From: Mycobacterium saskatchewanense
GTDB taxonomy: Bacteria; Actinomycetota; Actinomycetes; Mycobacteriales; Mycobacteriaceae
Assembly (NCBI RefSeq): GCF_010729105.1
Contig: NZ_AP022573.1
Coordinates: 310,001 to 374,000 of the forward strand
Direction of reading: 5' to 3'
DNA: 64,000 nt
The notes under the pieces are model-generated. The model was not told the origin of the DNA. It saw nothing but the letters and a program-made list of their open reading frames with translations, and made no database searches. The position numbers and the translations under genes are program-made. Positions 2,337 to 43,089 of this stretch are shown piece by piece (the first letter of the stretch is position 1; every line of letters begins with the position of its first letter).

Positions 2337-2400
2337 CCGCGAGACATAATCCTCTGCGAGCCCGACTGGCATGTCGTCGCGAAGGTTTATGTGGTCGTGG
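2337..2400 (+). repeat. 63-bp palindromic repeat family, copy 1
   Basis: 64-bp element with left end CCGCGAGACATAA and right end TTATGTGGTCGTGG, which are imperfect inverted repeats. The centre TGGCATGTCGTCGC starts 30 bp from the left end, as in all other copies. It lies 33 bp after the TetR stop. The right arm has one extra G relative to the other copies. Confidence 0.8.
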
Positions 2401-2456
2401 CCGAGGGCCGGACGCTTGAACCCAGCCCGTCGGCGATGGACCTCGCTCGTCGCACG

Positions 2457-2519
2457 CCGCGAGACATAATCCGCTGAGGCGTTCTTCGGCGTGTCTTCGC
2501 AGCCAGTTATGTGTCGCGG
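2457..2519 (+). repeat. 63-bp palindromic repeat family, copy 2
   Basis: The cleanest copy. The arms CCGCGAGACATAA and TTATGTGTCGCGG pair with one mismatch, and the centre CGGCGTGTC begins at offset 30. It sits 56 bp downstream of copy 1 in the same orientation, within the non-coding stretch before the M-box. No reading frame is apparent in 2305-2610. Confidence 0.85.
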
Positions 2520-2611
2520 GCGGGGATCGCGCGCCGAGGGCCCGCACCTGGCCGCCCCCTGTGTGCATGCTTACAGCCAGGTAAAGATCGTGGAACACGC
2601 CCGGCAGGAGT

Positions 2612-2640
2612 TTGACCTCACCAGACCCGTCGTGCATTAT
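2612..2640 (+). promoter_or_regulatory. Predicted promoter of the M-box transcript
   Basis: TTGACC (2612-2617) and CATTAT (2635-2640) are 17 bp apart and resemble SigA-type -35 and -10 boxes. Transcription would start near 2647, just ahead of the riboswitch. Confidence 0.5.
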
Positions 2641-2651
2641 CGGTCGGGTAT

Positions 2652-2815
2652 GCACCTCGTTAGGTGAGGCGTCTACACGAATACAGGCCACTGACCCCGA
2701 ACGTCGAAAGACGCCCCGGGTCAGGACAGCTCCTCCCGGCTTAAGGGTTGAGCCCAGGTGGCTTCCGGATTACCGGACACGTCGTGTAGTGCCAAAGCTC
2801 TGACGAGAGGGGTGC
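2652..2815 (+). promoter_or_regulatory. M-box (ykoK) magnesium riboswitch
   Basis: Conserved M-box segments occur in the right order: TTAGGTGAGGC at 2660, ACAGGCCACTG, the CGTCGAAAGACG hairpin, CGGCTTAAGGGTTGAGCC, CCGGATTACCGGA, and GTAGTGCCAAAGCTC up to about 2800. A closing helix can form between 2652-2658 and about 2807-2815. M-box RNAs bind Mg2+ and switch off downstream genes when Mg2+ is ample. In M. tuberculosis one is known upstream of Rv1535, the homologue of the gene at 3094. A hairpin pairing GACGA (2802) with TCGTC (2829), followed by a T-rich run, could be the expression platform; this last point is inference. Confidence 0.9.
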
Positions 2816-2907
2816 GGACCTCCGGCAGTCGTCGGGTTTCGTTCTCCTGCGTATACACCGTGTGCGGACAACCGCATGCGCCGTGACCGTGAGGAGGTGA
2901 GGGACAT

Positions 2908-2988
2908 ATGAGTTCCAGCGATAGTCCGGACCGAAGTCCGAGCTGCGTCTCGTCCCGATCCGGTCTCCGGTACGACGATCTGCTCTGA
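2908..2988 (+). CDS. 26-codon upstream ORF between M-box and the Rv1535-type gene
   Basis: ATG 2908 lies 6-7 nt after a very strong Shine-Dalgarno stretch (GAGGAGGTGAGGG) and runs 26 codons to TGA 2986-2988. The peptide (MSSSDSPDRSPSCVSSRSG...) is Ser/Arg-rich with no transmembrane segment and resembles no family I know. It sits after the M-box and 105 bp before the next gene, so its translation could couple riboswitch state to Rho-dependent termination or to folding of the leader; this role is inferred. It is too short for most gene finders. Confidence 0.5.
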   Translation: MSSSDSPDRSPSCVSSRSGLRYDDLL

Positions 2989-3093
2989 GTCGTCGATCCG
3001 CTTGCGAGCCAAGCGGTCCGGGGTCGGAACCGCCAAGGGACGGGACGCGTCAGTCCTGTTAGTCCCCAACGGAAATCCGTCTAGGAGGTCATC

Positions 3094-3324
3094 ATGACCG
3101 CAGTTCTGTACGACGAAGTGGTAACCGTAGCGCCCGCCCCCGTGCTGACGGTGGTGCGCGACACCGACACGATCCCCGCCCAGGCGCCCAAGAAGGCGAC
3201 CCGCCGGGTCGACAAGGCTCCCGGCGACCCGCTGGTGGAGGGCGCGACCCGCCTGCTGAGCATCCCGCTGCGCCACCTGTACGCGGCCCTGTGGCGGGTT
3301 GGTGTGCTCGAAGTCCAGGCCTGA
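3094..3324 (+). CDS. Small conserved mycobacterial protein under M-box control (Rv1535-type)
   Basis: 76 aa with an excellent ribosome site (TAGGAGG 5 nt before ATG). The conserved second half (KAPGDPLVE, then RLLSIPLRHLYAALWR) forms an amphipathic helix without a clear membrane span. Position between an M-box and ileS, as well as its size, match Rv1535 of M. tuberculosis, a protein of unknown function. Control by the Mg2+ riboswitch points to a role under Mg2+ starvation (inference). A hairpin follows directly. Confidence 0.85.
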   Translation: MTAVLYDEVVTVAPAPVLTVVRDTDTIPAQAPKKATRRVDKAPGDPLVEGATRLLSIPLRHLYAALWRVGVLEVQA

Positions 3325-3334
3325 GGAGGCGTCG

Positions 3335-3373
3335 ATGAGCAGTGGGCAATCGAGGCTCCAAGGGGCCACCTGA
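3335..3373 (+). CDS. 12-codon mini-ORF ending inside the terminator stem
   Basis: AGGAGG (3324-3329) overlaps the previous stop codon and stands 5 nt before ATG 3335. The frame MSSGQSRLQGAT ends at TGA 3371-3373, which lies inside the 5' arm of the hairpin at 3358-3407. The strong ribosome site on so short a frame suggests translation serves to place a ribosome on the hairpin rather than to make a product. Function is inferred only from this arrangement. Confidence 0.4.
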   Translation: MSSGQSRLQGAT

Positions 3374-3407
3374 CCGCAGGGCCGCCTGAGGTCAGGCGGC
3401 CCCTTGG
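3358..3407 (+). terminator. Terminator/attenuator with two exclusive hairpins
   Basis: The outer arms CCAAGGGGCCaCCTGAC (3358-3374) and GTCAGGcGGCCCCTTGG (3391-3407) pair with one mismatch. Within the same bases GGGCCGCCTG (3379-3388) pairs with CAGGCGGCCC (3393-3402). The two structures exclude each other. No U-tract follows, as is common in mycobacteria. It separates the M-box transcript from the ileS leader. Confidence 0.7.
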
Positions 3408-3439
3408 AGCGAGCGTTCACCGATTTGCGGCGTTCACTA

Positions 3440-3645
3440 GAATCGGTCCAGCGGCGTCGATCCGGCCATCACCGGGGAGCCTTCGGAAGAACGGCCGGCA
3501 CGGCTCAGTAGAACCGGACGGGTGGGCCCGTCACAGCCCGAATCGAGCGGCCCCGCGCAAGCGGGGCAAGCGGGGTGGTACCGCGGCGCTCGCGCACATC
3601 GCGCGTCGTCGTCCCCGGCCAACGGCATTGGGGCGCAAAGGACGC
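3440..3645 (+). promoter_or_regulatory. ileS T-box riboswitch (translational)
   Basis: The hallmark T-box GGGGTGGTACCGCGG is at 3572-3586 with TGGTACC at 3576-3582. Stem I is the short actinobacterial type: CCGGCC (3462-3467) pairs with GGCCGG (3493-3498) and the isoleucine specifier codon ATC lies at 3468-3470. Further hairpins are GACGGG/CCCGTC (3517-3532) and CCCCGC-GCAA-GCGGGG (3551-3566). CGTCC (3610-3614) can pair with GGACG (3640-3644), which overlaps the ileS ribosome site. Uncharged tRNA-Ile should therefore free the ribosome site, as known for actinobacterial ileS T-boxes. Confidence 0.92.
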
Positions 3646-3652
3646 AATCGTG

Positions 3653-6600
3653 GTGACCGACAACGTTGACCTCGGGGACTCCGTCAGGGTCTATCCCAAA
3701 CTGGCCGGCGGGGCGCCGGACTTCCCGGCGCTCGAGCTCGAGGTGCTCGACTACTGGGCGTCCGACGACACCTTCCGGGCCAGCATCGCCCGCCGCGACG
3801 GCGCGCCGGAGTACGTGTTCTACGATGGGCCGCCGTTCGCCAACGGGTTGCCGCACTACGGGCACCTGCTCACGGGTTACGTGAAGGACATCGTCCCGCG
3901 CTACCGCACCATGCGCGGCTACAAGGTCGATCGCCGCTTCGGCTGGGACACCCACGGCCTGCCCGCCGAACTCGAGGTCGAGCGCCAACTCGGCATCACC
4001 GACAAGTCGCAGATCGACGACATGGGGATTGCCGCATTCAACGACGCCTGCCGGGCCTCGGTGTTGCGCTATACCGACGAATGGCAGGCGTACGTGACGC
4101 GTCAGGCGCGGTGGGTCGACTTCGACAACGACTACAAGACCCTCGACCTGCCCTACATGGAGTCGGTGATCTGGGCGTTCAAGCAGCTGTGGGACCAGGG
4201 CCTGGCCTACGAGGGTTACCGCGTGCTGCCCTACTGCTGGCGCGACGAGACCCCGCTGTCCAATCACGAACTGCGCATGGACGACGACGTCTACCAGAGC
4301 CGCCAGGACCCTGCAATCACGGTGGGCTTCAAGGTGATTGGCGGCGAGCTGGACGGGGCTCACCTACTGGTGTGGACCACCACCCCATGGACGCTGCCGT
4401 CGAACCTGGCGGTCGCAGTCAACCCCGAAGTCACCTACGTCGAGATCAGGGCCGGCGACCGTCGCTTCGTGCTGGCGCAGCCGCGCCTGGCCGCCTATGC
4501 GCGCGAATTCGGCGATGAGCCCGAGGTTTTGGGCAGCTACCGGGGCGCGGAACTGCTGGGCACGCGGTACCTGCCGCCGTTTCCGTATTTCGCGGACACC
4601 GCCAACGCTTTCCAGGTCCTGCCCGGCGACTTCGTGACCACCGAGGACGGCACCGGCATCGTGCACATGGCGCCCGCGTACGGCGAGGACGACATGGCCA
4701 CCACCGACAAGGCCGGCATCGCGCCGGTCACGCCGGTGGATGCGCGGGGCCGCTTCGACGCGGAAGTCCCGGATTACCAGGGGCAGCACGTCTTCGCGGC
4801 CAACGCTCAGATCATCCGTGACCTGAAAGACGGCAGCGGCCCGGCCGCCGCCAACGGCGCGGTCCTGGTGCGCCACGAGACCTACGAGCACCCCTATCCG
4901 CACTGCTGGCGCTGCCGCAACCCGCTGATCTACCGGGCGGTGTCGTCGTGGTTCGTTGCCGTCACGGAATTCCGCGACCGCATGGTCGAACTCAACCAAC
5001 AGATCACCTGGCATCCCGACCACGTCAAGGACGGCCAGTTCGGCAAGTGGCTGCAGGGCGCCCGCGACTGGTCGATCTCGCGAAACCGCTACTGGGGCAC
5101 CCCCATTCCGGTGTGGAAGTCCGACGACCCGGCCTACCCGCGCATCGACGTGTACGGCAGCCTGGCCGAACTCGAGCGCGACTTCGGTGTGCGCCCGACC
5201 AATCTGCACCGGCCCTACATCGACGAGCTCACCCGCCCGAACCCGGACGACCCGACCGGACGCAGCAGGATGCGGCGCATCCCCGACGTGCTCGACGTCT
5301 GGTTCGACTCTGGTTCGATGCCGTACGCCCAGGTGCACTTTCCGTTCGAGAACGAAAAGTGGTTCGACACCCACTATCCGGGGGACTTCATCGTCGAGTA
5401 CATCGGCCAGACCCGAGGCTGGTTCTACACCCTGCACGTGCTGGCTACCGCGCTGTTCGACCGTCCGGCGTTCAAAACCTGTGTGGCACATGGCATCGTG
5501 CTGGGCTCCGACGGGCAGAAGATGAGTAAGTCGTTGCGCAACTACCCCGACGTCAGCGAGGTGTTCGACCGCGACGGCTCCGACGCCATGCGCTGGTTCC
5601 TGATGGCCTCGCCGATCCTGCGCGGCGGCAACCTCATCGTCACCGAGCAAGGGATCCGCGAGGGCGTGCGGCAGGTGCAGCTGCCGCTGTGGAACGCGTA
5701 CAGCTTCCTGGCCCTCTACGCGCCCAAGGCCGGCGCCTGGCGCACCGATTCGACGCACGTGCTGGACCGCTACATCCTGGCCAAGCTGGCCGACCTGCGG
5801 GACGACCTGACCGCCGAGATGGAGGCCTGCGACATCTCCCGGGCCTGCGAACACCTGCGCCTGTTCACCGAGGCGCTGACCAATTGGTATGTCCGCCGGT
5901 CGCGTTCGCGCTTCTGGGAGGAAGACGCCGGGGCCATCGACACGCTGCACACCGTGTTGGAGGTGACGGCGCGGCTGGCCGCCCCGCTGCTGCCGTCGGT
6001 CACCGAGATCGTCTGGCGTGGCCTGACCGGCGGGCGCTCGGTCCACCTCACCGACTGGCCGGGGGAAGGCGTCGTGCCCGCCGATGCCGAGCTGGTCGCC
6101 GCGATGGATCAGGTCCGCGAGGTGTGCTCCGCCGCATCGTCGCTGCGCAAGGCCAAGAAGCTGCGCGTCCGCCTGCCGCTGCCGAAACTGACTGTGGCGG
6201 TTGATGATCCGCAGCGGTTGGAGCCGTTCGTGGATTTGATCGCCGACGAGCTGAACGTCAAGTCCGTCGAGCTGACCGATGCCATCGACACCTACGGCCG
6301 TTTCGAGCTGACCGTCAACGCCCGCGTGGCCGGGCCGCGCCTGGGCAAGGACGTGCAGGCCGCGATCAAGGCGGTCAAGGCCGGCGAGGGCGTCGTCAAC
6401 GCCGACGGCACCCTGACCGCGGGCCCGGCGGTGCTGCGGCCCGAGGAGTACAGCTCACGCCTGGTGGCCGCCGACCCCGAGTACACCGCGGCGCTGGCCG
6501 ACGGGGCGGGCCTGGTCGTGCTCGACGGCACCGTCACCCCCGAGCTGGAGGCCGAGGGCTGGGCCAAGGACCGCATCCGCGAGCTGCAGGAGCTGCGCAA

Positions 6601-6790
6601 GTCGACCGGGCTGGACGTGTCCGACCGGATCTCCGTGGTGATGTCGGTGCCCGCCGGGCGCCTGGGCTGGGCGCAGACCCACCGCGACCTGATCGCGGGG
6701 GAGATCCTCGCCACCGGTTTCGTGTTCGGAGAGCCGGCGGACGGGGCCGAGATCGGCGACGGCGTGCGGGTGAGTATCGCCAAGGCGTGA
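3653..6790 (+). CDS. ileS: Isoleucyl-tRNA synthetase
   Basis: Charges tRNA-Ile with isoleucine in the cytoplasm. The 1045-aa product has the HIGH-type motif HYGH at residues 68-71, the CP1 editing domain in the middle ([13 protein letters not shown] around residue 330), KMSKS at 623-627 and a tRNA anticodon-binding C-terminus. Length and sequence match the large eukaryote-like synthetase usual in mycobacteria. GTG 3653 is chosen because it gives the family N-terminus (TDN...[19 protein letters not shown]) and stands about 10 nt after AAAGGA; the longer open frame runs back into the T-box and is not coding. Expression is set by that T-box. Confidence 0.97.
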
Positions 6791-6797
6791 CGGGTGG

Positions 6798-7625
6798 TCA
6801 GCCGCCGTTTCGGGTCGCGGCGGCGGCCAGCGTGACGTAGTGCATGGTGAAGCCGCCGCCGATCGAGTCGAGCGCGGCTCCCACGGCCCCCAGCACGGTC
6901 GCGACCTTGTCCGGGGCGAGCTGGGTGAGCGTGCCCATGGTCGGCAGGTGGTCCAGCCACTCGTCGCGGCTGTAATGCCGCTCCCATTCGAACCGCCACT
7001 GCTCGGGTTCGCCGAACGCGCCGGTCGCCCGGACGCCCTCGACGGCGCGCAGGAGATTGCCCTCCTGCAGGTCGAAGGCCGGGTTACCCACCTGGCTGCC
7101 GTCGGTCGGCCGGTTCTGCAGGGGCGCGTCGGGCGCCACCCGGTGCAGGGCCTCGTCGAAGGCGTCGGCGACCTCGCGCGGCGGATCGAAGACATGCCAG
7201 TACACCGCCAGCAGGCCGCGCGGCCGCAGCACCTGCGCGGCCTTTTCGGCGCCCCGCACCGGGTCGACCCAGTGCCAGGCCTGCCCGGCGACGACGGCGT
7301 CGAAAGAACGGCCCGCTGCGTCCCACTCCTCGAACTTGCCGATCTCCACCTCGATCCCGGTGCTCCGGGCGAAGTCCCCCATCCGCGCGTCCACGTCGAC
7401 GCCCAGCACCCTGCGACCGGCGGCGCGGTACTGCCTCGCCCCGATGCCCGTGCCGCAGCCGACGTCGAGGAACTCGACCCCGGGGCTGGCGGCGACGACG
7501 CGCTGGATCAGCTCGTCGGGGTAGCGCGGGCGCGCCCGGTCATACCGCGCGGCGTCCACCCCGAAGGACTCCGCCACGTCCCGGAGCCGGTGCAGCTCCA
7601 GCGAAGAAGAGGGTTCAGTCGTCAT
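6798..7625 (-). CDS. Class I SAM-dependent methyltransferase
   Basis: 275 aa. Motif I ([16 protein letters not shown]) and an acidic D-V-D in motif II mark a Rossmann methyltransferase; the A-W-H-W-V-D stretch after motif IV is common in the UbiE/trans-aconitate-like group. ATG 7625 is preferred over GTG 7634 because GGAG lies 8 nt before it. The stop is 7 bp from that of ileS, so the two genes converge. The acceptor substrate is unknown. Confidence 0.85.
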
Positions 7626-7785
7626 TGCTTGCACTCCGTCCTACGGCCTGGTCCGGCCAAGATGCGCCGGACGCACCCTCCACATTACGAAATGCGTTTT
7701 CCAGCAAACGATTTCCGCGGATGGCCCGGCGGGCGGGACGCGGCACGCCACGGTTGGCGGTGGGCCGCGCCTAGCATTCCCCAGT

Positions 7786-9186
7786 GTGGAGTCCCGCTGG
7801 GTGCTGCACCTGGACATGGATGCGTTCTTCGCGTCCGTCGAGCAACTGACCCGACCGACCCTGCGGGGGCGGCCGGTGCTGGTCGGCGGGCTGGGCGGAC
7901 GCGGCGTCGTGGCCGGCGCCAGCTACGAGGCGCGCGTGTACGGGGCGCGGTCGGCCATGCCGATGCACCAGGCCCGCCGGCTGATCGGCGTGAGCGCCGT
8001 GGTGTTGCCGCCGCGCGGTGTGGTCTACGGGCTGGCCAGCCGGCGGGTCTTCGAGACGGTGCGCGGCATGGTTCCCGTCGTCGAGCAGCTGTCGTTCGAC
8101 GAGGGCTTCGCCGAACCGCCGCAGCTCGCCGGGGCATCGGCCGAGGACGTCGAGGCGTTCTGCGAAAAGTTGCGGGGCCGGGTTCGCGAGGAGACGGGCC
8201 TGACCGCATCCGTCGGCGCGGGCTCGGGCAAGCAGATCGCCAAGATCGCGTCGGGACTGGCAAAGCCCGACGGCATCCGCGTGGTCCGGCGTGCCGAGGA
8301 ACGGCTGCTGCTGGGCGGGCTGCCCGTCCGGCGCCTGTGGGGGATCGGCCCGGTCGCCGAGGAGAAGTTGCACCGGCTCGGCATCGAAACGATCGGGCAG
8401 TTGGCGGCCCTGACCGACGCCGAGGCGGCCAATATCCTGGGCGCGACGATCGGTCCGGCGCTGCACCGCCTGGCCCGCGGCATCGACGACCGGCCCGTCG
8501 CCGAGCGGGCCGAGGCCAAGCAGATCAGCTCCGAGTCCACCTTCGCGGCCGACCTCACCAGCCTGGAGCAGCTGCACGAGGCGATCGGTCCCATCGCCGA
8601 ACACGCGCACCAACGCCTGCTGCGCGACGGGCGCGGCGCGCGGACCGTCACGGTGAAACTGAAGAAGTCCGACATGAGCACGCTGACCCGTTCGGCGACG
8701 CTGCCGTATGCGACGACCGAACCTGGCGCGCTCGCCGCCGTCGCCCGCCGCCTGCTGCTCGACCCGCGCGATATCGGGCCGATTCGCCTCCTCGGCGTGG
8801 GATTTTCGGGGCTGAGCGACGTGCGGCAGGAGTCGCTGTTCCCGGATCTGGATCTCGCGGGCGACCCGTCGGAGGGGCCAGCCGTCGAGACCGCGACCGA
8901 GGCGATGTTCGCCCCGGCGCCCCCCGATGCGGGGTGGCGGGTGGGTGACGACGTCACGCACCGCGAATTCGGCCACGGCTGGGTGCAGGGCGCGGGCCAC
9001 GGCGTGGTCACCGTGCGCTTCGAGACCCGCGGTTCCGGCCCGGGACAGGCCCGGACGTTCCCCGCCGGCACCGGCGAACTCGTCAGGGCCAACCCCGTCG
9101 ACTCCCTGGACTGGCCGGATTACGTGGGCGCCCTGCAGGCGAACCCCGAATCAACCCCACCGGGCGATGACGTCGGTGACCGGTAG
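7786..9186 (+). CDS. dinX: Y-family DNA polymerase IV (DinX)
   Basis: Error-prone translesion DNA polymerase. The palm signature [13 protein letters not shown] is at residues 8-20 and the catalytic LSFDEGF near residue 102. The little-finger domain ends with a beta-clamp motif QESLF (348-352), followed by a C-terminal extension (about 385-466) typical of mycobacterial DinX. At 466 aa it matches Rv1537. GTG 7786 stands 8 nt after TAGCAT (7772-7777), suggesting a leaderless transcript. No LexA box was seen. The 3' end overlaps ansA by 36 bp, tail to tail. Confidence 0.93.
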
Positions 9187-10089
9187 CTTCGCGGCCAACG
9201 CGGCGATCAGCAGCACCCGGGCCTGCGGGGGCCGCAGTCGCGGCACCATCAGCGCGCCGGCCGTAGCCATGGCGTGTCCGGGGCCGTAGCTGGCGCCGAC
9301 CCGCCCGCCCGGGACCCGCGTGGACACCGCGACAATCACCCCGTCGGCGCACTGCCGGCGCACCGCGTCGACCACGGCGGGCCCCGCGTTGCCCGAACCC
9401 AGCGCTTCCAACACCACGGCCCGGGCGCCGGCGGCCACACACGCCTCCAGCGCCACCCCGTCACTGCCCAGGTAGGCCGCGACGATGTCGACCCGCGGCG
9501 CCGTGGCGGCGCCGAGCTCTCCCACGAGCGGTCGCGTCTTCGCGCCGGTCAGCGACGCGACGCCGTCGACCGTGCCGAGCAGGGCGCCGGTGAAGCCGCT
9601 GAGGTCCTGCGTCGCGACCTTGGACATGCCCAGCGGCTGCAGCACCCGACCGGCGAAACAGACCAGCACGCCGAGGTCACGGGCGGCCGGGCTGGCCGCG
9701 AGCGCCAGCGCGTCGCGCAGGTTGGCCGGGCCGTCGGCGTCGGGAGCGTCTGCGCTGCGCATGGCGCCGGTCAGGACCACCGGCGCCGACCCGGCATACG
9801 TGAGGTCGAGCCACAGCGCGGTCTCCTCGAGGGTGTCGGTGCCGTGGGTGACGACGACGCCGTCGGCACCCCCGTCGACGGCGGATCGGACCGCGGCCCC
9901 GATCCGGTCCCAGTCGGCGAGCGTCAGCTCCGAGCTGTCGACGGCCAACAAGTCGACGACGTCGACGTCGTGCGCCGCATCGACGGCCGCCGTCAGGTCC
10001 GCCCCGCTGCGAGTCGGCCTGCGCACGCCGTCGGTACCGGTGCTCGTCGATATCGTGCCCCCGGTGGCGATGACGGTCAGGCGGGCCAT
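9151..10089 (-). CDS. ansA: L-asparaginase (type I/II family)
   Basis: Hydrolyses asparagine to aspartate and ammonia. The nucleophile-threonine loop ATGGTIST (about residues 8-15) and the second catalytic motif [11 protein letters not shown] are intact. The 312-aa product begins [11 protein letters not shown] at ATG 10089; an in-frame ATG at 10101 adds four residues. No signal peptide is evident. It runs divergently from lspA across about 70 bp and overlaps the end of dinX. Order matches Rv1538c. Confidence 0.93.
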
Positions 10090-10160
10090 AGTAGAGATCA
10101 TCGCGCACGCCGCTGGCGAACATCGGCTGGCCCGCGGCCGGATTAGGGGATGATGAGAGG

Positions 10161-15051: not shown

Positions 15052-15073
15052 TACGGGACAGATTGGCGACACC

Positions 15074-15877: not shown

Positions 15878-15938
15878 TGGCGGTCGTGGCGGCGGCCTCC
15901 GGCGGAGACGCGGCGGTCCCGAAGCCCGACCAGGGGCG

Positions 15939-16001
15939 CCGCGACACAGCACTGGTTGCGACGACACGCCGGAAATCGTCGCGGTGGTTTATGTCTCGCG
16001 G
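15939..16001 (-). repeat. 63-bp palindromic repeat family, copy 3 (inverted)
   Basis: On the minus strand the arms are CCGCGAGACATAA and TGCTGTGTCGCGG, and the centre CGGCGTGTCGTCGCAACCAG begins at offset 30, matching copy 2 closely. It lies 27 bp upstream of the SRPBCC gene, so it forms part of that gene's promoter region or 5' leader. Confidence 0.82.
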
Positions 16002-32414: not shown

Positions 32415-32428
32415 TTGCTACAGCAATC
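32413..32428. repeat. 16-bp inverted repeat at the plsB1 stop
   Basis: GATTGCT-AC-AGCAATC overlaps the plsB1 stop codon. The 2-bp centre is too small for an RNA loop without opening a pair, so it may be an operator or a recombination point at the synteny break rather than a terminator. Confidence 0.5.
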
Positions 32429-33962: not shown

Positions 33963-34026
33963 GGGGGCGTGCCGTCGACTGCCAGGGGCCCGCAACGCGG
34001 CAGGGATGACTTTCAACCGTCGCACC

Positions 34027-34978: not shown

Positions 34979-35030
34979 CTGGGTTACTCCGTTGATTGGC
35001 ATCCCACACGTCCGCACGTGCGAAACGTGC

Positions 35031-35864
35031 TCACTTGACGAGGAGCCCGGCGTCGAGCGGCAACGTGATGCCGGTGATGTAGCGTCCGGATTCACCGCAC
35101 AGGTAGACCATCGCCTCGGTGACGTCCTCGGGTTCGATCAACGGCACCGGGAGCAGGTTGACGAAAGCGGTCGCGAATGCTTGATGGTCGGCGGAGTAAC
35201 GCCCGAACGCCTCGTTCTGGATCATTGGGGTCGCGACACCGGTCGGGTGCACCGAATTGACCCGAATCTTCTTCTCGGCGAGGGAAGTCGCGTAGTACCT
35301 CATCAGTCCCACCACCCCGTGCTTGGCGGCGGTATACCCGGCCAGCCCATGTTCGCGGCTGTCGAAGCTGAGGCCGATCGATTTCAGACCGGCCGCGGAA
35401 CTGGTGATGACGATCGCACCGCCTTCATCCCGCCCCAGCATCGCGGGCAAGGCCGCCTCGATCGTGAAGTAGACGCCGTTGAGCATGACGTCGATCGCGT
35501 CCCGGTACGCGGACATGGTCGGCTGTGGGAGACCGGCGCCCGGCGCTATGCCGGCATTGGCCAGCACGAAGTCCAGGCGACCGAGTTCGGCGACCCCGTC
35601 GGCGACGACGGATTGCAGCCGCGAGAAGTCCCGGACGTCGGCTTGTTCGGCGACGATGCGGCGCCCGGTCTTCTCAACGAGGTTGACCGTCTCGTCGAGG
35701 TCTTCGCGCCGGGCCATCGGGTATGCCACGCTGTCGATCTGCTCGCAGATGTCGACCGCGATGATGTCGGCGCCCTCCTCGGCGAACCGCACCGCGTGGG
35801 TGCGCCCCTGCCCCCGGGCGGCCCCGGTGATGAATGCAACCTTGCCGCTGAACTTTCCCGTCAT
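35031..35864 (-). CDS. Mycofactocin-coupled SDR family oxidoreductase
   Basis: 277 aa. The cofactor loop T-G-A-A-R-G-Q-G-R-T-H-A-V, the A-V-D-I-C segment and catalytic Y-T-A-A-K fit the mycofactocin-coupled SDR subgroup (TIGR03971 type), whose NAD(H) is bound permanently and recycled by the peptide-derived cofactor mycofactocin rather than by free NAD exchange. Insert segments (D-I-C-E-Q-I-D-S-V-A-Y) typical of the subgroup are present. ATG 35864 gives MTGKFSGKVAFITG. The alcohol substrate is unknown. The mycofactocin synthesis genes are not in the window. Confidence 0.86.
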   Translation of the reverse strand: MTGKFSGKVAFITGAARGQGRTHAVRFAEEGADIIAVDICEQIDSVAYPMARREDLDETVNLVEKTGRRIVAEQADVRDFSRLQSVVADGVAELGRLDFVLANAGIAPGAGLPQPTMSAYRDAIDVMLNGVYFTIEAALPAMLGRDEGGAIVITSSAAGLKSIGLSFDSREHGLAGYTAAKHGVVGLMRYYATSLAEKKIRVNSVHPTGVATPMIQNEAFGRYSADHQAFATAFVNLLPVPLIEPEDVTEAMVYLCGESGRYITGITLPLDAGLLVK

Positions 35865-35998
35865 GATCCCCCGCCCATCCGCCTTGCCGCATGTGTTCGT
35901 CGGTCGTCGATTCGACTCCACTGTGACGGCCACCGAGTGCGCTCACTTGCTTGCAGGCGCAGGACAGTTGTTCCGGTGCGCCCAGTAGCGGCGGCTCG

Positions 35999-37429
35999 TC
36001 AGGGGCTGACTGTGCTGGCGACCCGAACGGGGGCGTCGGCCGACGCGCCGGTCCACGCGATGTACCCGTCGGGGCGCACCAGGACCGCGGGGCCGTCGTC
36101 GGTCCGCTCCGCCTGGGCGATGCCGGGGGCCTCGATCGGCGCGGTGCCCCGTTCGCGCACCAGCAGGTAGCCTCCGGCGCGTTGCAGCGCGGTGACGCAC
36201 CCCTGGGCCAGCGGTATCTGGGTCGCCCGGGTGCCGACCGGCCCGCGCCGGCCGTAGCGCAGGGCCGAGCCCGAAAAACTGCCCGCCACCAGGTCGCGCA
36301 CCGCTGGTATCCGAAGCAGGTTGGGCGCCAACAGGTTTCGCAGCAGCCGCGCCGGCCGCGGATGCAGGGTGACCGCGCGGGCAATCAGCCCGGACTGCAG
36401 GAGCACCCGTTTGCCGATCGGGTGACGCTCGGCGTGGTAGGTGTCCAGCAGGCTGTCGTCGGCACCGGCGAGCGCCGCGTCGATCTTCCAGGCCAGGTTG
36501 GCGGCGTCCTGGATTCCGGTGTTCATGCCCTGGCCGCCCATGGGGGAGTGCACGTGTGCGGCGTCGCCGGCGAGGAAAACCCGGCCGTGCCGGTACTGGC
36601 GGACCTGCCTTTCGTCGCAATGGAACCGGGACTTCCAGCTGATCTCGGTCACGCCGAAGTCCACGCGCATGGCGCGCGCCAGGACGGCGATCACCTCATG
36701 GTCGTCGACGGGCTCGCTGTCGGGCACCTGGTGGTTGCGATCCCACACCATGGCGCGATACCAGGAGCCGTCCGCGTCGCGGCGCCCGTAGGGCGCGAGG
36801 AAGCCCAGCGCGTCGCGGGTCGAGCCCATGCGCAGCCCCTCGCCCGAGGGCTCGCGGGCCAGCTTCACGTCAGCCAGCACGAGGGACGTGAGCAGCGTCT
36901 TGCCGGGGAAGTCGGCGCCCACCAATTCTCGGACGGTGCTGTGGGCCCCGTCGGCGCCGATCACGTAGCGCGCCCGCCAGACCTGCCGGTGCGCCGGATT
37001 GCCGTCGTCCTTGGGTCGGGCGGTCAGGGTCACGCCATCGGCGTCCTGGTCGAGTGCGACCACCTCGACGCCGCGGCGGATGTCGGCGCCCTGCGTGGTC
37101 GCGTAGCGACCAAGCGCGGCATCGACATTGGCCTGCGGCGTGACCAATACGAACCGGTAGGGGGAGTCCAGGTGCGTCAGGTCGAGGCGGGCACCGGCGA
37201 ACAGCCGCACCCCCGGCGCGTGGTGCCCGAGCGCCAGCAGGTCGTCGGCCAGGCCGCGGGCATCGAGGACCTCGAGCGTGCGGGCCATGGTGGCGAACGC
37301 GCGGCTCGACGGGTTTTCCGACGGCCAGCGTTCCAAGACGGCCACCGATCGGCCGGCGCGGGCGAGGTCGCCGGCGGCCGTCAGCCCCGTCGGGCCCGCA
37401 CCCACCACGAGAACGTCGACGTCGTTCAT
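35999..37429 (-). CDS. FAD-dependent aromatic-type monooxygenase (class A)
   Basis: 476 aa of the PHBH fold. Seen are the FAD-binding G-A-G-P-T-G at the N-terminus, the D-G motif (G-A-D-G-A-H-S-T-V-R) and the second FAD motif G-R-V-F-L-A-G-D-A-A-H with G-G-Q-G-M-N-T-G-I-Q-D. Such enzymes hydroxylate phenols, polyketides or antibiotics such as rifampicin or tetracycline. ATG 37429 overlaps the stop of the small gene upstream by 4 bp, so the two form an operon under the TetR at 37931. Confidence 0.88.
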   Translation of the reverse strand: MNDVDVLVVGAGPTGLTAAGDLARAGRSVAVLERWPSENPSSRAFATMARTLEVLDARGLADDLLALGHHAPGVRLFAGARLDLTHLDSPYRFVLVTPQANVDAALGRYATTQGADIRRGVEVVALDQDADGVTLTARPKDDGNPAHRQVWRARYVIGADGAHSTVRELVGADFPGKTLLTSLVLADVKLAREPSGEGLRMGSTRDALGFLAPYGRRDADGSWYRAMVWDRNHQVPDSEPVDDHEVIAVLARAMRVDFGVTEISWKSRFHCDERQVRQYRHGRVFLAGDAAHVHSPMGGQGMNTGIQDAANLAWKIDAALAGADDSLLDTYHAERHPIGKRVLLQSGLIARAVTLHPRPARLLRNLLAPNLLRIPAVRDLVAGSFSGSALRYGRRGPVGTRATQIPLAQGCVTALQRAGGYLLVRERGTAPIEAPGIAQAERTDDGPAVLVRPDGYIAWTGASADAPVRVASTVSP

Positions 37430-37833
37430 CGCGTCGCCCCTTCCGGTTCGGGGTACCACCGGCGGACGTCGCCCGGCGTGGACTCCGCCGCGCGGTTGAA
37501 GACGAAGCGGCAGTCGGGCTGCGTCGCATGCGCGGCGTTGACGATCGCCTCGAACAGCAGCGTGTTCCTCGCGACCAGCCTGATCCCGGCGCCGATCAGC
37601 ACCGCGTCGTAGCGCTTGGCCTCCAGCCACCGGCGGGCCTTGTCGGCACCCGCCGCGCCGAAGTCGACCAGGCAGTTGTCGACCTGATATCCGGCGGCCC
37701 GGAGCGCCTCGACGTTGTCGCGGTTGGCGGCCCGCAGCGTGTCCTCGGACAACCCGGGGAACTGGGCGAAATCGGGGCCGGAGTAGTCGATCACGGCGGG
37801 GTCGAGCCCGATCTGTATGACGGTCACTGGCAT
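37426..37833 (-). CDS. Conserved hypothetical protein partnered with the monooxygenase
   Basis: 135 aa. I do not assign a family. An alternating beta-alpha pattern (V-T-V-I-Q-I-G-L-D-P, Y-D-A-V-L-I-G-A-G-I-R) suggests a small Rossmann-like fold. No signal peptide or membrane segment. ATG 37833 has GGAGGAG 12 nt upstream. It is the first gene of the operon with the flavin monooxygenase and is read divergently from a TetR gene, with two operator copies between. Confidence 0.75.
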   Translation of the reverse strand: MPVTVIQIGLDPAVIDYSGPDFAQFPGLSEDTLRAANRDNVEALRAAGYQVDNCLVDFGAAGADKARRWLEAKRYDAVLIGAGIRLVARNTLLFEAIVNAAHATQPDCRFVFNRAAESTPGDVRRWYPEPEGATR

Positions 37834-37856
37834 GCCCGAGATCTCCTCCGCTTGAG

Positions 37857-37872
37857 TTCAACAGTTGTTGAA
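37857..37872. promoter_or_regulatory. TetR operator copy 1
   Basis: TTCAACA-GT-TGTTGAA, a 7-bp inverted repeat, 24 bp upstream of the hypothetical/monooxygenase operon. It has the same core as the copy at 37902, 45 bp away centre to centre. Confidence 0.8.
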
Positions 37873-37894
37873 GTCAACGGTAGGCATTCGGTGG

Positions 37895-37923
37895 TTGGCG
37901 TGTCAACAGTTGTTGAATACACT
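37895..37923 (+). promoter_or_regulatory. tetR promoter with operator copy 2 in the spacer
   Basis: TTGGCG (37895-37900) and TACACT (37918-37923) are 17 bp apart, and the spacer is the second operator GTCAACAGTTGTTGAA (37902-37917). Binding would block RNA polymerase directly. The ATG at 37931 follows the -10 by 7 nt, so the TetR mRNA is probably leaderless. Confidence 0.75.
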
Positions 37924-37930
37924 CTCCGGC

Positions 37931-38488
37931 ATGCCCGCGAAGCCGCGCGACGGAAAGGTCACCCGCGAGACGATCCTGGGCGCCGCGCGTGCCCAGTTTT
38001 CGGCGCATGGCTTCGAGCGCAGCACCATCCGCTCTATCGCGGCCGCGGCGGGCGTCGACCCCGCGCTCGTCATGCATTACTTCGGCAGCAAGGCCGACCT
38101 GTTCGCGGCGGTGTCGCGGCTGGAGATCGACTTTCCCGATCTGTCCGGCGTCGCCCCCGATCGACTCGCGGACGTGCTGGTGCCGCTGTTCATCGAGGTG
38201 TGGAACCCCGGGGGCTCGTTCCTGCCGCTGTTGCGGGCGGCCGCGACCAACCGGGCGGCCGCCGACGCGCTGCTGCGGGTCTTCGTCGAGCAGGTCGCTC
38301 CGGCGCTGGCGGCCATCGCCCCCGACCGCGCGGCCGAGCGCGCCGCGCTGGTGGGCTCGCAGGTCATCGGAATCGCGATGGCGCGCAATGTGGTGGGCGT
38401 GCCGTCGCTGACCGGCATGGCCGACGCGACGCTCACCGAGTGGCTGCGGCCGGTGCTGGCGCGCTACCTGACGGGTCCGGCGCCGTAG
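37931..38488 (+). CDS. TetR family regulator of the flavin monooxygenase operon
   Basis: 185 aa. The helix-turn-helix S-T-I-R-S-I-A-A-A-A-G-V-D-P-A-L-V-M-H-Y-F-G-S-K lies near residues 34-58, with a TetR_C (PsrA/CprB-like) ligand domain after it. It is divergent from the monooxygenase operon with twin palindromes between them, so repression of both promoters is the simple model. The inducer is likely a substrate of the monooxygenase (inference). Confidence 0.9.
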   Translation: MPAKPRDGKVTRETILGAARAQFSAHGFERSTIRSIAAAAGVDPALVMHYFGSKADLFAAVSRLEIDFPDLSGVAPDRLADVLVPLFIEVWNPGGSFLPLLRAAATNRAAADALLRVFVEQVAPALAAIAPDRAAERAALVGSQVIGIAMARNVVGVPSLTGMADATLTEWLRPVLARYLTGPAP

Positions 38489-38526
38489 CGGGGTGGAACA
38501 CCGCCGCCCGGCCTAGAGTCATGGAC

Positions 38527-38964
38527 ATGCCACTTTCAGGGGAATACGAACCGTCACCGTGGGATTGGGCTCGCGAATAGGCCGACAAGTACGCCGAGTC
38601 CGGGGGAACCGAGGCCGCGGACATGAAGGGCAAGCCCATCATCCTGCTGACCACCGTCGGGGCGAAGACCGGCAAGCTGCGCAAGACGCCGCTGATGCGC
38701 GTTGAGCACGACGGACGGTACGCCGTCGTGGCCTCGCTTGGTGGGGCGCCCAAGCACCCCGTCTGGTACTTCAACATCAAGAAGAACCCGCGGGTCGAGC
38801 TGCAGGACGGCGCGGTCACCCGGGACTACGACGCCCGCGAGGTGTTCGGCGAAGAGAAGGCGGTCTGGTGGGAGCGCGCCGTCGAGGCCTGGCCGGACTA
38901 CGCCGAGTACCAGAAGAAGACCGACCGCCAGATCCCGGTGTTCGTCCTGACGGCGGTCGACTGA
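38527..38964 (+). pseudogene. Ddn-like F420-dependent reductase (Rv1558-type), amber codon at position 18
   Basis: The frame from ATG 38527 reads MPLSGEYEPSPWDWARE, meets TAG at 38578-38580 and then continues [11 protein letters not shown] and the whole deazaflavin-dependent nitroreductase (DUF385) domain to 38964. Relatives have Gln at the stop position, so a single CAG-to-TAG change explains it. A frame from ATG 38623 (113 aa, [20 protein letters not shown]...) keeps the core ([17 protein letters not shown]) but loses the N-terminal helix. Such enzymes use F420H2 to reduce quinones. It may be inactive, re-initiated or a sequencing error. Confidence 0.75.
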
Positions 38965-38998
38965 CTTCCGGAGCCGGTCGGCATGGCACCATTGATCG

Positions 38999-40288
38999 GT
39001 GTCCGCCGAACTGAGCCACCACCCGAGCTCGCCGATCCCTGCGCCGCTGACCGCGGCGGACATCGACGGCGCGGCGAAGCGGATCGCCTCGGTGGTGTCG
39101 CCGACCCCGCTGCAGTTCAGCGATCGGCTCTCGGCGATCACTGGCGCGCAGGTATACCTCAAGCGCGAGGACCTGCAGATCGTGCGCTCCTACAAGCTGC
39201 GCGGCGCTTACAACCTGCTGGTGCAGCTGTCCGACGAGGAGCTGGCCTCCGGCGTGGTGTGCTCGTCGGCGGGCAACCACGCGCAGGGGTTCGCGTACGC
39301 GTGCCGGACGCTGGGTGTGCACGGGCGCGTCTACGTCCCGGCCAAGACGCCCAAGCAGAAGCGTGACCGGATCCGCTACCACGGGGGCGACTTCATCGAG
39401 CTGATCGTGGGCGGGGCGACCTACGACCTCGCCGCCGAGGCGGCGCTGGCCGACGTCGCGCGCACCGGCGCCACCCTGGTGCCGCCGTACGACGACCCGC
39501 GCACCATGGCCGGCCAGGGCACGATCGCGGTCGAACTGCTCGCCCAACTCGACGCGGAGCCCGACCTCGTGGTGGTTCCCGTGGGCGGCGGCGGCTGCAT
39601 CGCGGGCATCACCACGTATCTCGCCGAGCGGACCGCCAACACGGCGGTCCTGGGCGTCGAGCCGGCCGGCGCCGCGGCGATGATGGCCGCGCTGGCGGCC
39701 GGGGAGCCGGTGACGCTGGACCACGTCGACCAATTCGTCGATGGCGCCGCCGTCCGCCAGGCCGGGGCGCTCACCTACGCCGCCCTGGCCGCGGCCGGCG
39801 ACATGGTCTCGATCACCACCGTCGACGAGGGCGCGGTGTGCACCGCGATGCTCGACCTGTACCAGAACGAGGGGATCATCGCCGAGCCGGCGGGTGCGCT
39901 GTCGGTGGCGGGTCTGCTGGAAGCCGACATCGAGCCGGGCGCAAGCGTGGTGTGCCTGATCTCGGGCGGCAACAACGACGTCTCGCGCTACGGCGAGGTG
40001 CTGGAGCGCTCGCTGGTCCACCTGGGGCTCAAGCACTACTTCCTCGTCGACTTCCCCCAGGAGCCGGGCGCGTTGCGCCGGTTCCTCGACGAGGTGCTCG
40101 GGCCCAACGACGACATCACCCTGTTCGAGTACGTCAAGCGCAACAACCGCGAGACCGGCGAGGCTCTGGTCGGCATCCAGCTGGGATCGTCGGCCGATTT
40201 CGACGGCCTGCTCACCCGGATGCGGGCCACCGACCTGCACATCGAGGCGCTGGAGCCGGGATCGGCGGCCTACCGCTACCTGCTGTAG
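38999..40288 (+). CDS. ilvA: Threonine dehydratase, biosynthetic
   Basis: 429 aa. Deaminates threonine to 2-oxobutanoate, the first step to isoleucine. The PLP lysine is K66 in S-Y-K-L-R-G-A-Y-N; S-S-A-G-N-H-A-Q-G and the glycine-rich V-P-V-G-G-G-G-C bind the PLP phosphate. The C-terminus (about 335-429) is the short ACT-like regulatory domain found in this group. Start GTG 38999 (S-A-E-L-S-H-H). Corresponds to Rv1559. Confidence 0.95.
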   Translation: MSAELSHHPSSPIPAPLTAADIDGAAKRIASVVSPTPLQFSDRLSAITGAQVYLKREDLQIVRSYKLRGAYNLLVQLSDEELASGVVCSSAGNHAQGFAYACRTLGVHGRVYVPAKTPKQKRDRIRYHGGDFIELIVGGATYDLAAEAALADVARTGATLVPPYDDPRTMAGQGTIAVELLAQLDAEPDLVVVPVGGGGCIAGITTYLAERTANTAVLGVEPAGAAAMMAALAAGEPVTLDHVDQFVDGAAVRQAGALTYAALAAAGDMVSITTVDEGAVCTAMLDLYQNEGIIAEPAGALSVAGLLEADIEPGASVVCLISGGNNDVSRYGEVLERSLVHLGLKHYFLVDFPQEPGALRRFLDEVLGPNDDITLFEYVKRNNRETGEALVGIQLGSSADFDGLLTRMRATDLHIEALEPGSAAYRYLL

Positions 40289-40306
40289 GCCGCGTGCGGC
40301 GTCGAC

Positions 40307-40355
40307 CGTCGACTTGTGGCGGTACTCGCGGGTAAACCGCGCAAACAAGTCGACG
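40307..40355. repeat. 49-bp palindromic element between convergent genes
   Basis: CGTCGACTTGT (40307-40317) and ACAAGTCGACG (40345-40355) are perfect 11-bp inverted repeats; inside, GCGGT (40319) pairs with ACCGC (40336). It fills the gap between ilvA and a convergent gene and is probably a bidirectional terminator, or a member of a dispersed palindrome family. Confidence 0.7.
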
Positions 40356-40363
40356 TTCGGCGG

Positions 40364-41011
40364 CTAGCGCAGGTAGGACGGCAGGGGCGTCGCGGGATCC
40401 AGATCGGTTGCGGCGACGGGCGTGCCGGCGGTCAGGCGCAGGGGCACCACGCCCGCCCAGTGGGGCAGCGCGCGATCCTCCGGATCGTCGACGGGAGCAC
40501 CGGCGCGCACCTTGGCCGAGACTTCGAGCAGGTCGAGCGCCAGCACGCCCGTGGCCGCGAGCTCGCGCGCGTCGGGTCTCCGGCAGTCCGCGGCGCGACC
40601 GGGCGCGACGTGGTCGAGCAGGCGATCGAGGGCCCGTCGCTTCTCGGCCTCCCCATCGACCACCCGGGCGGTGCCGTGCACCACCGCGGAGCGGAAGTTC
40701 ACGGAATGGTGCATCGCGGCGCGGGCGAACACCAGCCCGTCGACGAGCGTGGCGGTGACGCATACGGTCAGGCCGCCCGCCGGCTTGGCCGCCAACATCG
40801 GGCCGCCGCCGGAGGATCCGTGCAGGTAGAGGATCTCGCCGAGGCGGGCGTGCGTCATCGGCAAGACGACCGGGCGATCGCCGCTGAGGTACCCCAGGTG
40901 GCAGATCAGCGCCTCGTCGAGGATGGCGTGCACGGTTGCGCGGTCGTAGTGCGCGCGCTCGCGGTGGCGGGTGGGGGTGGTGCGGGGTGTCGGTCGGTAG
41001 CCGGTGTCCAC
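40364..41011 (-). CDS. Pyridoxamine 5'-phosphate oxidase-like FMN-binding protein
   Basis: 215 aa of the split-barrel FMN family (Pyridox_ox_2/NimA-like). D-R-P-V-V-L-P-M-T-H-A-R-L and I-L-Y-L-H-G-S-S-G-G-G flank the flavin site; N-F-R-S-A-V-V-H-G-T-A-R-V-V is typical. The start is GTG 41011 after GAGGG. It diverges from a MocR regulator, a pairing often seen with vitamin B6-related genes, but enzyme activity on B6 vitamers is not shown. Confidence 0.85.
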   Translation of the reverse strand: MDTGYRPTPRTTPTRHRERAHYDRATVHAILDEALICHLGYLSGDRPVVLPMTHARLGEILYLHGSSGGGPMLAAKPAGGLTVCVTATLVDGLVFARAAMHHSVNFRSAVVHGTARVVDGEAEKRRALDRLLDHVAPGRAADCRRPDARELAATGVLALDLLEVSAKVRAGAPVDDPEDRALPHWAGVVPLRLTAGTPVAATDLDPATPLPSYLR

Positions 41012-41032
41012 TCGATTGCCCTCATTTTTGTT

Positions 41033-41066
41033 CTAGTACATAATTATTTCCGTGCCAGTACAATAT
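41033..41066. promoter_or_regulatory. Direct repeats in an AT-rich MocR divergent promoter
   Basis: CTAGTACATAAT (41033) and CCAGTACAATAT (41055) are direct repeats with AGTACA 22 bp apart. MocR regulators such as GabR and PdxR bind direct repeats. TAATTA (41041-41046) is 5 nt before GTG 41052, so the regulator's transcript may be leaderless; the second repeat then lies in its own first codons. Confidence 0.6.
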
Positions 41067-42365
41067 CGTATCGCGGGGGCGGGTGCCGACTCGATTGCCG
41101 CCGACGTCGAACGTGCGGTCTCGGCGGGAGACCTCGAGCCCGGGGAGGCGCTGCCGCCAGTCCGCGAGCTGGCCGGCCGGCTCGGCGTGAACGCGAACAC
41201 GGTGGCCGCCGCCTACCGGCTGCTGCGCGATCGCGGGGTCGTGGAAACCGCTGGCCGGCGCGGCACCCGGGTGCGGCACCGACCGGCCAGCACGCCGCGC
41301 TCCCTGCTGGGGCTCGACGTCCCCACGGGCGTCCGCGACCTGTCGACGGGCAACCCCGACCCGGCGCTGTTGCCCATCGGCTCCGTCGAGGTCCCACGGG
41401 GCCGGCCGCTGCTCTACGGCGGGCCGGCCATGTCGCCCGAACTGGTCGACTTCAGCCGTCGCGCGCTGGCCGCGGACGGCGTGCCGGCCGACCACCTCGC
41501 CGTGACCAGCGGGGCATTGGACGGCATCGAGCGCGCCCTCGCCGCCGAGCTGCGACCCGGCGACCGCATCGCGGTCGAGGACCCGGGTTGGGCCAACCTG
41601 TTGGATTTGGTTGCGGCACTGGGTCTTTCCGTCGAGCCGGTGCGGGTCGACGACGACGGGCCGTTGCCCGGTGACGTGGGGCGCGCGCTCAGCCGCGGCG
41701 CAAGGGCGCTCGTCGTCACCGGTCGGGCGCAAAACCCAACGGGTGCAGCGCTATCCGCGGCACGCGCGGACGAACTGCGCGGCTTGGTCGCCGGTCATGA
41801 CGTATTAATGGTCGAGGACGATCACTGCGCGGGCATCTCCGGCGCCCCGCTGCACACCCTGGCCGGATCGACCGACCGTTGGGTGTTCGTGCGATCGGCG
41901 TCCAAGGCCTACGGGCCGGACCTGCGGGTGGCCGTCCTCGCCGGGGACCGCCGCACCGTCGAACGCGTGCACGGACGCCTGCGGCTCGGCCCGGGATGGG
42001 TGAGCCACCTGCTGCAAGACCTGGCGGTGCGGTTGTGGAGCGACGCCTCGGCGACACGCCTGGTGCACGACGCCGAGGCGCGCTACCGCACGCGGCGTAC
42101 CGGGCTGTGCGACGCGCTCGCCGCGCGCGGCGTCGACGCCCACGGCCGCTCCGGGCTCAACGTGTGGGTCCCGGTGCCCGACGAGACCGTCGCGATCACC
42201 CGGCTGATCGCCGCCGGGTGGGCCGCCGCGCCCGGGACGCGCTTCCGGATCGGAACGCCGCCCGGAATCCGCGTCACGGTAGCCGACCTGAGCGCCGACG
42301 AGATCAACCCGCTCGCCGACGCGATCGCCGCGGCGGTGCTCGCTACCGGGCGTCGGAGCGTGTGA
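41052..42365 (+). CDS. MocR family regulator (GntR helix-turn-helix plus aminotransferase domain)
   Basis: 437 aa. Residues 1-75 hold a GntR winged helix (L-P-P-V-R-E-L-A-G-R-L-G-V-N-A-N-T-V-A-A-A-Y-R), and about 90-435 a fold-type I aminotransferase-like domain with the PLP-lysine region V-R-S-A-S-K-A-Y-G-P-D-L-R. Such proteins sense PLP or amino compounds. Likely controls the divergent FMN protein gene through the direct repeats. The 3' end overlaps the convergent glycosylase gene by 23 bp. Confidence 0.9.
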   Translation: MPVQYRIAGAGADSIAADVERAVSAGDLEPGEALPPVRELAGRLGVNANTVAAAYRLLRDRGVVETAGRRGTRVRHRPASTPRSLLGLDVPTGVRDLSTGNPDPALLPIGSVEVPRGRPLLYGGPAMSPELVDFSRRALAADGVPADHLAVTSGALDGIERALAAELRPGDRIAVEDPGWANLLDLVAALGLSVEPVRVDDDGPLPGDVGRALSRGARALVVTGRAQNPTGAALSAARADELRGLVAGHDVLMVEDDHCAGISGAPLHTLAGSTDRWVFVRSASKAYGPDLRVAVLAGDRRTVERVHGRLRLGPGWVSHLLQDLAVRLWSDASATRLVHDAEARYRTRRTGLCDALAARGVDAHGRSGLNVWVPVPDETVAITRLIAAGWAAAPGTRFRIGTPPGIRVTVADLSADEINPLADAIAAAVLATGRRSV

Positions 42366-42933
42366 GGATGCCGGCGGCCCGGGCGACCTCGCCGTAGGCG
42401 CTCGCGAGGCTCGCGAGCGACGCGTGGGCGTTGCGGCCACTGGGATTCGGGACCACCCACAGTTCGGTGGCGGGGAACGGCGACACCTGCCTGCCCGGCT
42501 TCGCCAGCCGATCGCCGAAGGCTTCCCGGTAGGCGGTGATGCCGAGGACCGCGACGACGGCGGGGGAGTACTTCGCGACGGTCCGCTCCAGCTTCCGCCG
42601 GCCAGCCAGCAGTTCGGCGGGTGTGAGTTCGTCCGCGCCCGCGGTCGCCCTGCCGACCAGGTTCGTGATGCCGATTCCGCTTCGCAACAAGTACTTTCGG
42701 TCGGCCGGGGTAAACCCTGACGAGGCGTCGATCAGGTGATCGGTGATGCCGGCTTGATGCAGCGCGGGCCAGAACCGATTGCCGCGCGGCGCGAAATGCG
42801 CCTGCACCGCGGCGGTTCTCAGGCCCGGGTTGATCCCGACGAACAGCAACTTGACGTGGTCGGAGATGAGGTCGGGCAGGGTGCTGCCGCGGAACCGCTT
42901 CAGTTCGTCGCGGGTGAATCGGACCTCGGCCAT
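42343..42933 (-). CDS. G/U mismatch-specific DNA glycosylase (Mug/TDG family)
   Basis: 196 aa. The uracil-DNA glycosylase superfamily motif 1 is L-F-V-G-I-N-P-G, with the Asn that identifies the Mug/TDG branch, and motif 2 is V-V-P-N-P-S-G-R-N-A-H. The protein would excise uracil or thymine opposite guanine in base-excision repair. ATG 42933; no signal sequence. Confidence 0.88.
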   Translation of the reverse strand: MAEVRFTRDELKRFRGSTLPDLISDHVKLLFVGINPGLRTAAVQAHFAPRGNRFWPALHQAGITDHLIDASSGFTPADRKYLLRSGIGITNLVGRATAGADELTPAELLAGRRKLERTVAKYSPAVVAVLGITAYREAFGDRLAKPGRQVSPFPATELWVVPNPSGRNAHASLASLASAYGEVARAAGILTRSDAR

Positions 42934-43026
42934 AGCGGACGCCGATGATACCCGTCGCCGGCGGTCGTGCGGTGACGGCCCATCGTGCGGGGCTGAACCG
43001 AACAGTCGGGACGGGGGATTCCCGCA

Positions 43027-43089
43027 CGACGAGATATAAACGGCTGCTGCCCTTTTCGGCGTGTCGCGTGCGTGGTTTATGTGTCGTGG
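43027..43089 (+). repeat. 63-bp palindromic repeat family, copy 4
   Basis: The left arm CGACGAGATATAA and right arm TTATGTGTCGTGG are diverged inverted repeats, with the centre CGGCGTGTCG at offset 30. It lies between the glycosylase gene start and the 3' end of the small membrane gene at 43139. Confidence 0.75.

Follow-up and report, generated by a model that had tools for sequence, protein, structure and literature searches.

A dispersed 63-bp palindrome of Mycobacterium saskatchewanense as the probable recognition element of an AbiEi-EDxHD nuclease that it flanks

Introduction

In the REP/RAYT systems ("REPtron", TnpA_REP), extragenic palindromes flank a chromosomal gene and are also dispersed as non-autonomous copies; such palindromes, the flanked gene and its long persistence are described in the accessible parts of PMC8049555 and PMC8266576. 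In the available text of PMC3733652, a REP is defined as a palindrome of 20–40 bp with a GTAG or CGTC tag at one end, and the main text of that source, as far as it is available, contains neither "mycobacteri" nor "actinobacteri". Two groups of proteins are also relevant here. The EDxHD homing endonuclease I-Bth0305I (PDB 3r3p) has a target of nearly 60 bp, on which it dimerizes (PMC3943268), and antitoxins of the AbiEi family bind 23-bp inverted repeats with a spacing of 3 or 13 bp (accessible part of PMC7319586). Stem-loop families of M. tuberculosis include Myt-1 (72 nt, 75 members) and Myt-8 (92 nt, 33 members), according to the portion of PMC2267715 that could be consulted. Here we analyze a 64,000-nucleotide stretch of M. 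saskatchewanense (NZ_AP022573.1, positions 310,001–374,000; hereafter the window), in which a 63-bp palindromic repeat occurs four times, together with a nuclease gene of the same chromosome that is flanked by two further copies of this repeat.

The original prediction, made from the window alone, proposed that the repeat is a MITE-like (miniature inverted-repeat transposable element) mobile element, a protein-binding site or an RNA hairpin, and knew of no description of it. In agreement with this, we found none in the open-access literature, and the rep-PCR primers given in the accessible part of PMC10117815 bear no resemblance to the repeat by eye. The combination of EDxHD-like and AbiEi-like domains with a cognate dispersed palindrome was likewise not found in the open-access literature. 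The partnership of the nuclease and the palindrome is apparently undescribed in open-access text, though the repeat may still coincide with an already catalogued mycobacterial repeat such as one of the Myt families.

Results

The repeat flanks the gene of a two-domain nuclease

The host genome (G000) consists of one contig of 6,008,916 bases (6.0 Mb). At about 5.6 Mb from the window, it contains a nuclease gene (5952928–5953773) that lies between two whole copies of the repeat, not within one: the first is located upstream (5952824–5952886) and the second downstream, at the stop codon (5953764–5953826). These two copies are inverted relative to each other. The protein is composed of an AbiEi-like half joined to a Vsr-like EDxHD nuclease half; it matches the MTES_1575/DUF559 and AbiEi profiles and the AbiEi and EDxHD/Vsr folds, and the features that mark the two groups, namely the AbiEi fold and a Vsr-like fold with conserved E, D, H and D residues, are both present. 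MTES_1575 is named as a Vsr-type REase (restriction endonuclease) in the available text of PMC3710099. Pfam results for the flanked gene included no Y1 (HUH) transposase match, a search of the genome for a RAYT elsewhere not having been made. The nuclease family was detected in 106 of 148 genomes of the class, five of the 106 belonging to the genus of the window, and some of its members are named "endonuclease domain-containing" or DUF559 in the databases.

The same arrangement recurs at the close homologues. Searching with a weight matrix revealed an upstream copy, paired with a second one at the stop codon or immediately beyond it, at all 16 loci with at least 69% identity (L069–L084), and two flanking copies at 7/7 named loci of another series (L135–L141, where L136 is G062 again), while one 69% homologue (L145) gave weak matrix matches only. 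One relative, G097, possesses a second close homologue of the nuclease (C2, 70%). The arm sequences vary with the lineage (ATAA/TTAT, TTAA/TTAA, CTGACGC and others). The more distant paralogues showed no match to the window-type weight matrix, and many of them bear palindromes of their own type. Among 112 nuclease genes (matches shorter than 230 residues, duplicates and genes with less than 330 bp of flank were excluded), a palindrome with at least 14 of 18 arm pairs was present upstream in 67 and downstream in 53, compared with 8/112 and 3/112 inside the genes and 1/224 in shuffled sequences. A stricter control, which required at least 15/18 arm pairs at 74 loci of L135–L214, gave 57/148 nuclease flanks against 2/376 flanks belonging to other genes of these loci.

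The type of the palindrome tracks the type of the nuclease, that is, the two co-diverge: the greater the protein divergence, the lower the similarity of the palindromes. The two flanks of a gene were more alike than the flanks of non-close nucleases in 28 of 45 genes, and were not in the other 17; as the loci are related, p-values for this pairing are nominal only. The flanking pair is in direct orientation in 21 of the 28 scored pairs, while that of the window type is inverted. Outside the genus (22 loci, three of 25 being left out for short flanks), palindromes with at least 16/18 arm pairs were found upstream in five and downstream in five cases and never in the inside-gene control, whereas at 14/18 the counts of 10 and 9 say little because this control reaches 5. 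A paralogue of the host genome (243344–244168) is flanked by a palindrome pair of its own, and this palindrome occurs at 11 other genomic places, seven of them full length, so the genome carries at least two nuclease-palindrome pairs. Similarly, in G198, a member of another family of the class, the palindrome of the nuclease occurs at 11 places, two of which flank the gene, and it was not found in G228 of the same genus. Taken together, the partnership between nuclease and palindrome is real and general.

Structure of the 63-bp element

The four copies in the window were found where the original prediction had placed them, in the orientations it had given. Copy 1 (2337–2400, plus strand) is 64 bp long owing to one extra G in its right arm, and the others are 63 bp. 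Copy 2 (2457–2519, plus strand) follows 120 bp after copy 1. Copy 3 (15939–16001, minus strand) has an unusual GTGCTGTGTCG right arm, and copy 4 (43027–43089, plus strand) falls in the class whose right inner arm is GTCGCGTGCGTGG. Copies 1 and 2 are followed directly by an M-box (magnesium) riboswitch (RF00380, 2649–2818, 154.8 bits).

The consensus CCGCGAGACATAAACCACTGCGACGCTTTTCGGCGTGTCGTCGCAGAGGTTTATGTGTCGCGG was derived from 179 distinct 63-mers of the host and related genomes; these were chosen by a matrix made from ten of the host's own copies, so the conservation seen over them is inflated. The conserved blocks cover positions 4–13, 31–41 and 49–60, except positions 7, 10, 50 and 54, while positions 24–30 are free to vary. 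In copy 2, these blocks correspond to the left box CGAGACATAA (2460–2469), the asymmetric centre box (2487–2497, consensus CGGCGTGTCGT) and the right box (2505–2516, consensus GTTTATGTGTCG), all on the plus strand. The centre thus begins at position 31, 30 bp in from the left end, as had been proposed from four copies, and the family has an orientation and a fixed length. GTGTCG is present at positions 35–40 of the centre and 55–60 of the right arm, exactly 20 bp apart, and GTCTCG occurs in inverted form within the left arm, hence each element may contain three related half-sites. The proposed conservation of the arms was borne out; they are not fully complementary, since position 7 opposes position 57 as G.G or A.G in 171/179 sequences. 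Covariation was strong for the pairs 10–54 and 19–45 and weaker for 11–53 and 17–47; the remaining pairs were mostly too invariant or did not covary.

Copy number and genomic context

The pattern CGAGACATAA-N{20,45}-TTATGTGTCG, which permits spans of 40–65 bp, had ten matches genome-wide, each exactly 57 bp, and its reversed control had none in the whole genome. Using blastn with a consensus-like 63-mer, about 35 distinct places were counted by hand, some of them partial. A chance origin of the repeat, which the original prediction had doubted, was rejected on these two results. The same prediction would have been abandoned had fewer than about ten copies without length conservation been found; with about 35 places and ten matches of one length, this was not the case.

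All of the 31 distinct own copies checked (fetched loci and window, from the approximately 35) lie outside genes predicted by our own codon-usage program. The gene pairs around them were ++ in 11, +- in 9, -- in 7 and -+ in 4 cases, against 12, 10, 15 and 10, respectively, among 47 predicted pairs of the window, that is, no clear preference for gene ends was apparent among the 31 copies. Besides the pair 120 bp apart in the window, two copies elsewhere lie 193 bp apart. At 881397–881713 (L021), a 129-bp unit with one 63-bp repeat is present three times in tandem, which is a local amplification.

Presence, absence and age of the copies

At the nuclease locus (L010), Pfam identified a methyltransferase, a SelR/MsrB protein and a chlorite dismutase as neighbours, and the order at L040 is the same by reading; neither of these two loci, the ones checked, contains a DUF1814/AbiEii toxin gene adjoining the nuclease. 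This methyltransferase/msrB locus was compared among relatives, where 23 of 30 genomes could be parsed. These included seven forward, five reversed and one truncated unit, two solo copies, three decayed half copies, three gaps with palindromes of other families and two without any. The solo copies, seen in G031 and G061, may represent either unoccupied sites or the outcome of recombination. In the reversed units (G001, G046, G048, G076 and G118), the two TTAA-type flanking copies are direct, in contrast to the inverted pair of the G000 orientation; such units may stem from inversion or from independent insertion, which look alike here.

Copies 1 and 2 are missing from all nine parsed relatives (ten of 30 loci were parsed), in which the gap is 80–176 bp instead of 325 bp; because more than 63 bp is absent, it is not a precise empty site. 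For copy 3, where 21 of 30 loci were parsed, a counterpart in matching orientation with the same unusual GTGCTGTGTCG right arm occurs in G097 and a diverged one in G046, while none was detected by the matrix in the other 18 parsed relatives. In G036 (L223) and G080 (L226), though not in G001, this gap contains a palindrome of another family, with arms like GCCCGCCTCACAGCGAC / GTCGCTATGAGGCGGGC, which is also present in the methyltransferase/msrB gaps of G017 (L323) and G131 (L327). In G058 (L227), a short tandem array of GCTCACACGCAAAGCCCT-like units stands in place of copy 3.

The covariance model located 19 distinct places in G062 and 22 in its sister species G100 (raw match counts include some palindromes on both strands). 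Among 16 of the 19 G062 places, picked from those listed as matches, 15 have a G100 counterpart between the same flanks; accordingly, the copies are old, and they are stable over the short term. In 13 of the 15 shared pairs, identity was 90.2% in the element, 77.8% in the adjacent 80 bp and 94.2% in the farther flank, so the copies are more constrained than their immediate surroundings. Of the single changes in these pairs, 26 break a base pair, 12 make one and 8 keep it, and two double changes keep it; base pairing is not strictly kept between the sister species. Target-site duplications showed no excess around 172 copies (at least 5 bp, 6 observed and 9.7 expected; at least 6 bp, 0 and 2.9).

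Discussion

The system described here resembles REP/RAYT in its extragenic palindromes (31/31 copies), in the chromosomal gene flanked by copies (16/16 loci), in the dispersed non-autonomous copies, which are old and positionally stable, and in the local tandem copies. However, the enzyme is an AbiEi-EDxHD nuclease and not a Y1 HUH transposase, the palindrome is 63 bp instead of 20–40 bp, the host has at least two nuclease-palindrome pairs, and the 179-copy consensus lacks GTAG and has CGTC nowhere but in the centre. By both features that define REP/RAYT, enzyme class and size with tag, the system falls outside that group. Unlike I-Bth0305I, the nuclease is not in an intron or phage, and it is flanked by two whole putative targets instead of interrupting one. 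It also differs from AbiEi antitoxins such as Rv2827c and S. agalactiae AbiEi: the AbiEi-like half is joined to a nuclease half, the loci read have no neighbouring AbiEii toxin gene, and the palindrome recurs at the stop codon and in dispersed copies.

We consider it probable that the chromosomal endonuclease has the 63-bp repeat flanking its gene as its cognate recognition element, in a REP/RAYT-like system built on an unrelated enzyme. This interpretation leans on the flanking pair, its recurrence at the close homologues, the co-divergence, the dispersed solo copies and the states of the locus. Recognition of the palindrome by the nuclease is likely, and among the options of the original prediction the repeat is most likely a protein-bound site; binding, cutting and present mobility we infer from sequence comparison. 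Since AbiEi proteins bind inverted repeats and I-Bth0305I binds, as a dimer, a target of nearly 60 bp, a fusion of the two types is expected to dimerize on a palindrome of about 60 bp. The AbiEi half would bind both arms, and the nuclease half would nick or cut at the asymmetric centre; copies might then be spread, or the gene shifted between them, when the cut is repaired or strands are exchanged there, and the nuclease would be retained by the host or through its own drive. Three observations weigh against this interpretation. Many paralogues have the upstream palindrome only, which fits a plain operator; copies persist where only remnants of the nuclease locus are left (G036, G080, G134 and G031); and the dispersed copies of G001 differ for the most part in arm type from the flanks of its nuclease, a comparison affected by a search bias.

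The palindromes could instead be operators, with the AbiEi-like half using the upstream copy to repress its own promoter, and with the dispersed copies as immobile, host-kept sites of a regulon or of chromosome organization. AbiEi autoregulation through inverted repeats (PMC7319586, accessible part), the paralogues with an upstream palindrome only, and copies that are positionally stable and better conserved than the adjoining DNA are consistent with this; still, we regard it as unlikely, because autorepression needs neither the copy at the stop codon nor a nuclease half whose active site is invariant, and promoters hold no excess of the dispersed copies (4/31 copies between divergent predicted genes against 10/47 window pairs). 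It is more improbable that the palindromes are independent elements, in which the nuclease genes happen to insert or with which they simply occupy the same intergenic refuges. Other palindrome families do occur in many intergenic gaps, a partner nuclease for those not having been sought, but other genes of those loci almost never have such palindromes in their flanks (2/376), and the type follows the nuclease and not the locus, the methyltransferase/msrB locus having units of the ATAA as well as the TTAA type. It is very improbable that the repeats act at gene ends as RNA hairpins or terminators. The palindromic form, the few covarying pairs and a slight excess in convergent gaps (9/31 against 10/47) would suit this, whereas the conserved stem mismatch and asymmetric centre, a consensus without a U tract and orthologous copies without a compensatory pattern do not; with changes between sister species that do not preserve pairing and no clear gene-end preference, this option of the original prediction was not favored. 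An Rfam family was rejected for the repeat, no match over the copies being obtained at gathering thresholds, the only ones applied. A classical MITE of a DDE transposon, similar as it is in short fixed length, inverted terminal arms and intergenic dispersal, can practically be dismissed, since target-site duplications are not in excess, no DDE parent was found and the flanked gene, which matches nuclease and AbiEi families, encodes a nuclease of another fold, which leaves the MITE-like proposal unsupported in the classical sense.

Beyond the recognition of the palindrome by its nuclease, a wider scheme can be put forward tentatively, at well below even odds: actinomycetes would carry selfish or domesticated systems, each made up of an AbiEi-EDxHD nuclease and a cognate palindrome of about 60 bp, where solo copies are free targets, occupation inserts the gene and duplicates the palindrome, and orthogonal pairs co-diverge. 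As occupation would duplicate the palindrome, the flanking pair, direct in most scored cases, would act as a very long target duplication. Such systems would form a natural library of matched nuclease-target specificities, with several orthogonal pairs per genome.

If recognition of the flanking palindrome is true, a large protein family now named in part "endonuclease domain-containing" or DUF559 would gain a function, and a part of the intergenic palindromes seen in mycobacteria would be accounted for. Populations of a gene plus its palindromes, as in REP/RAYT, would have arisen at least twice, with unrelated enzymes, and if each nuclease recognizes its own palindrome, the family would be a readable set of protein-DNA specificity pairs.

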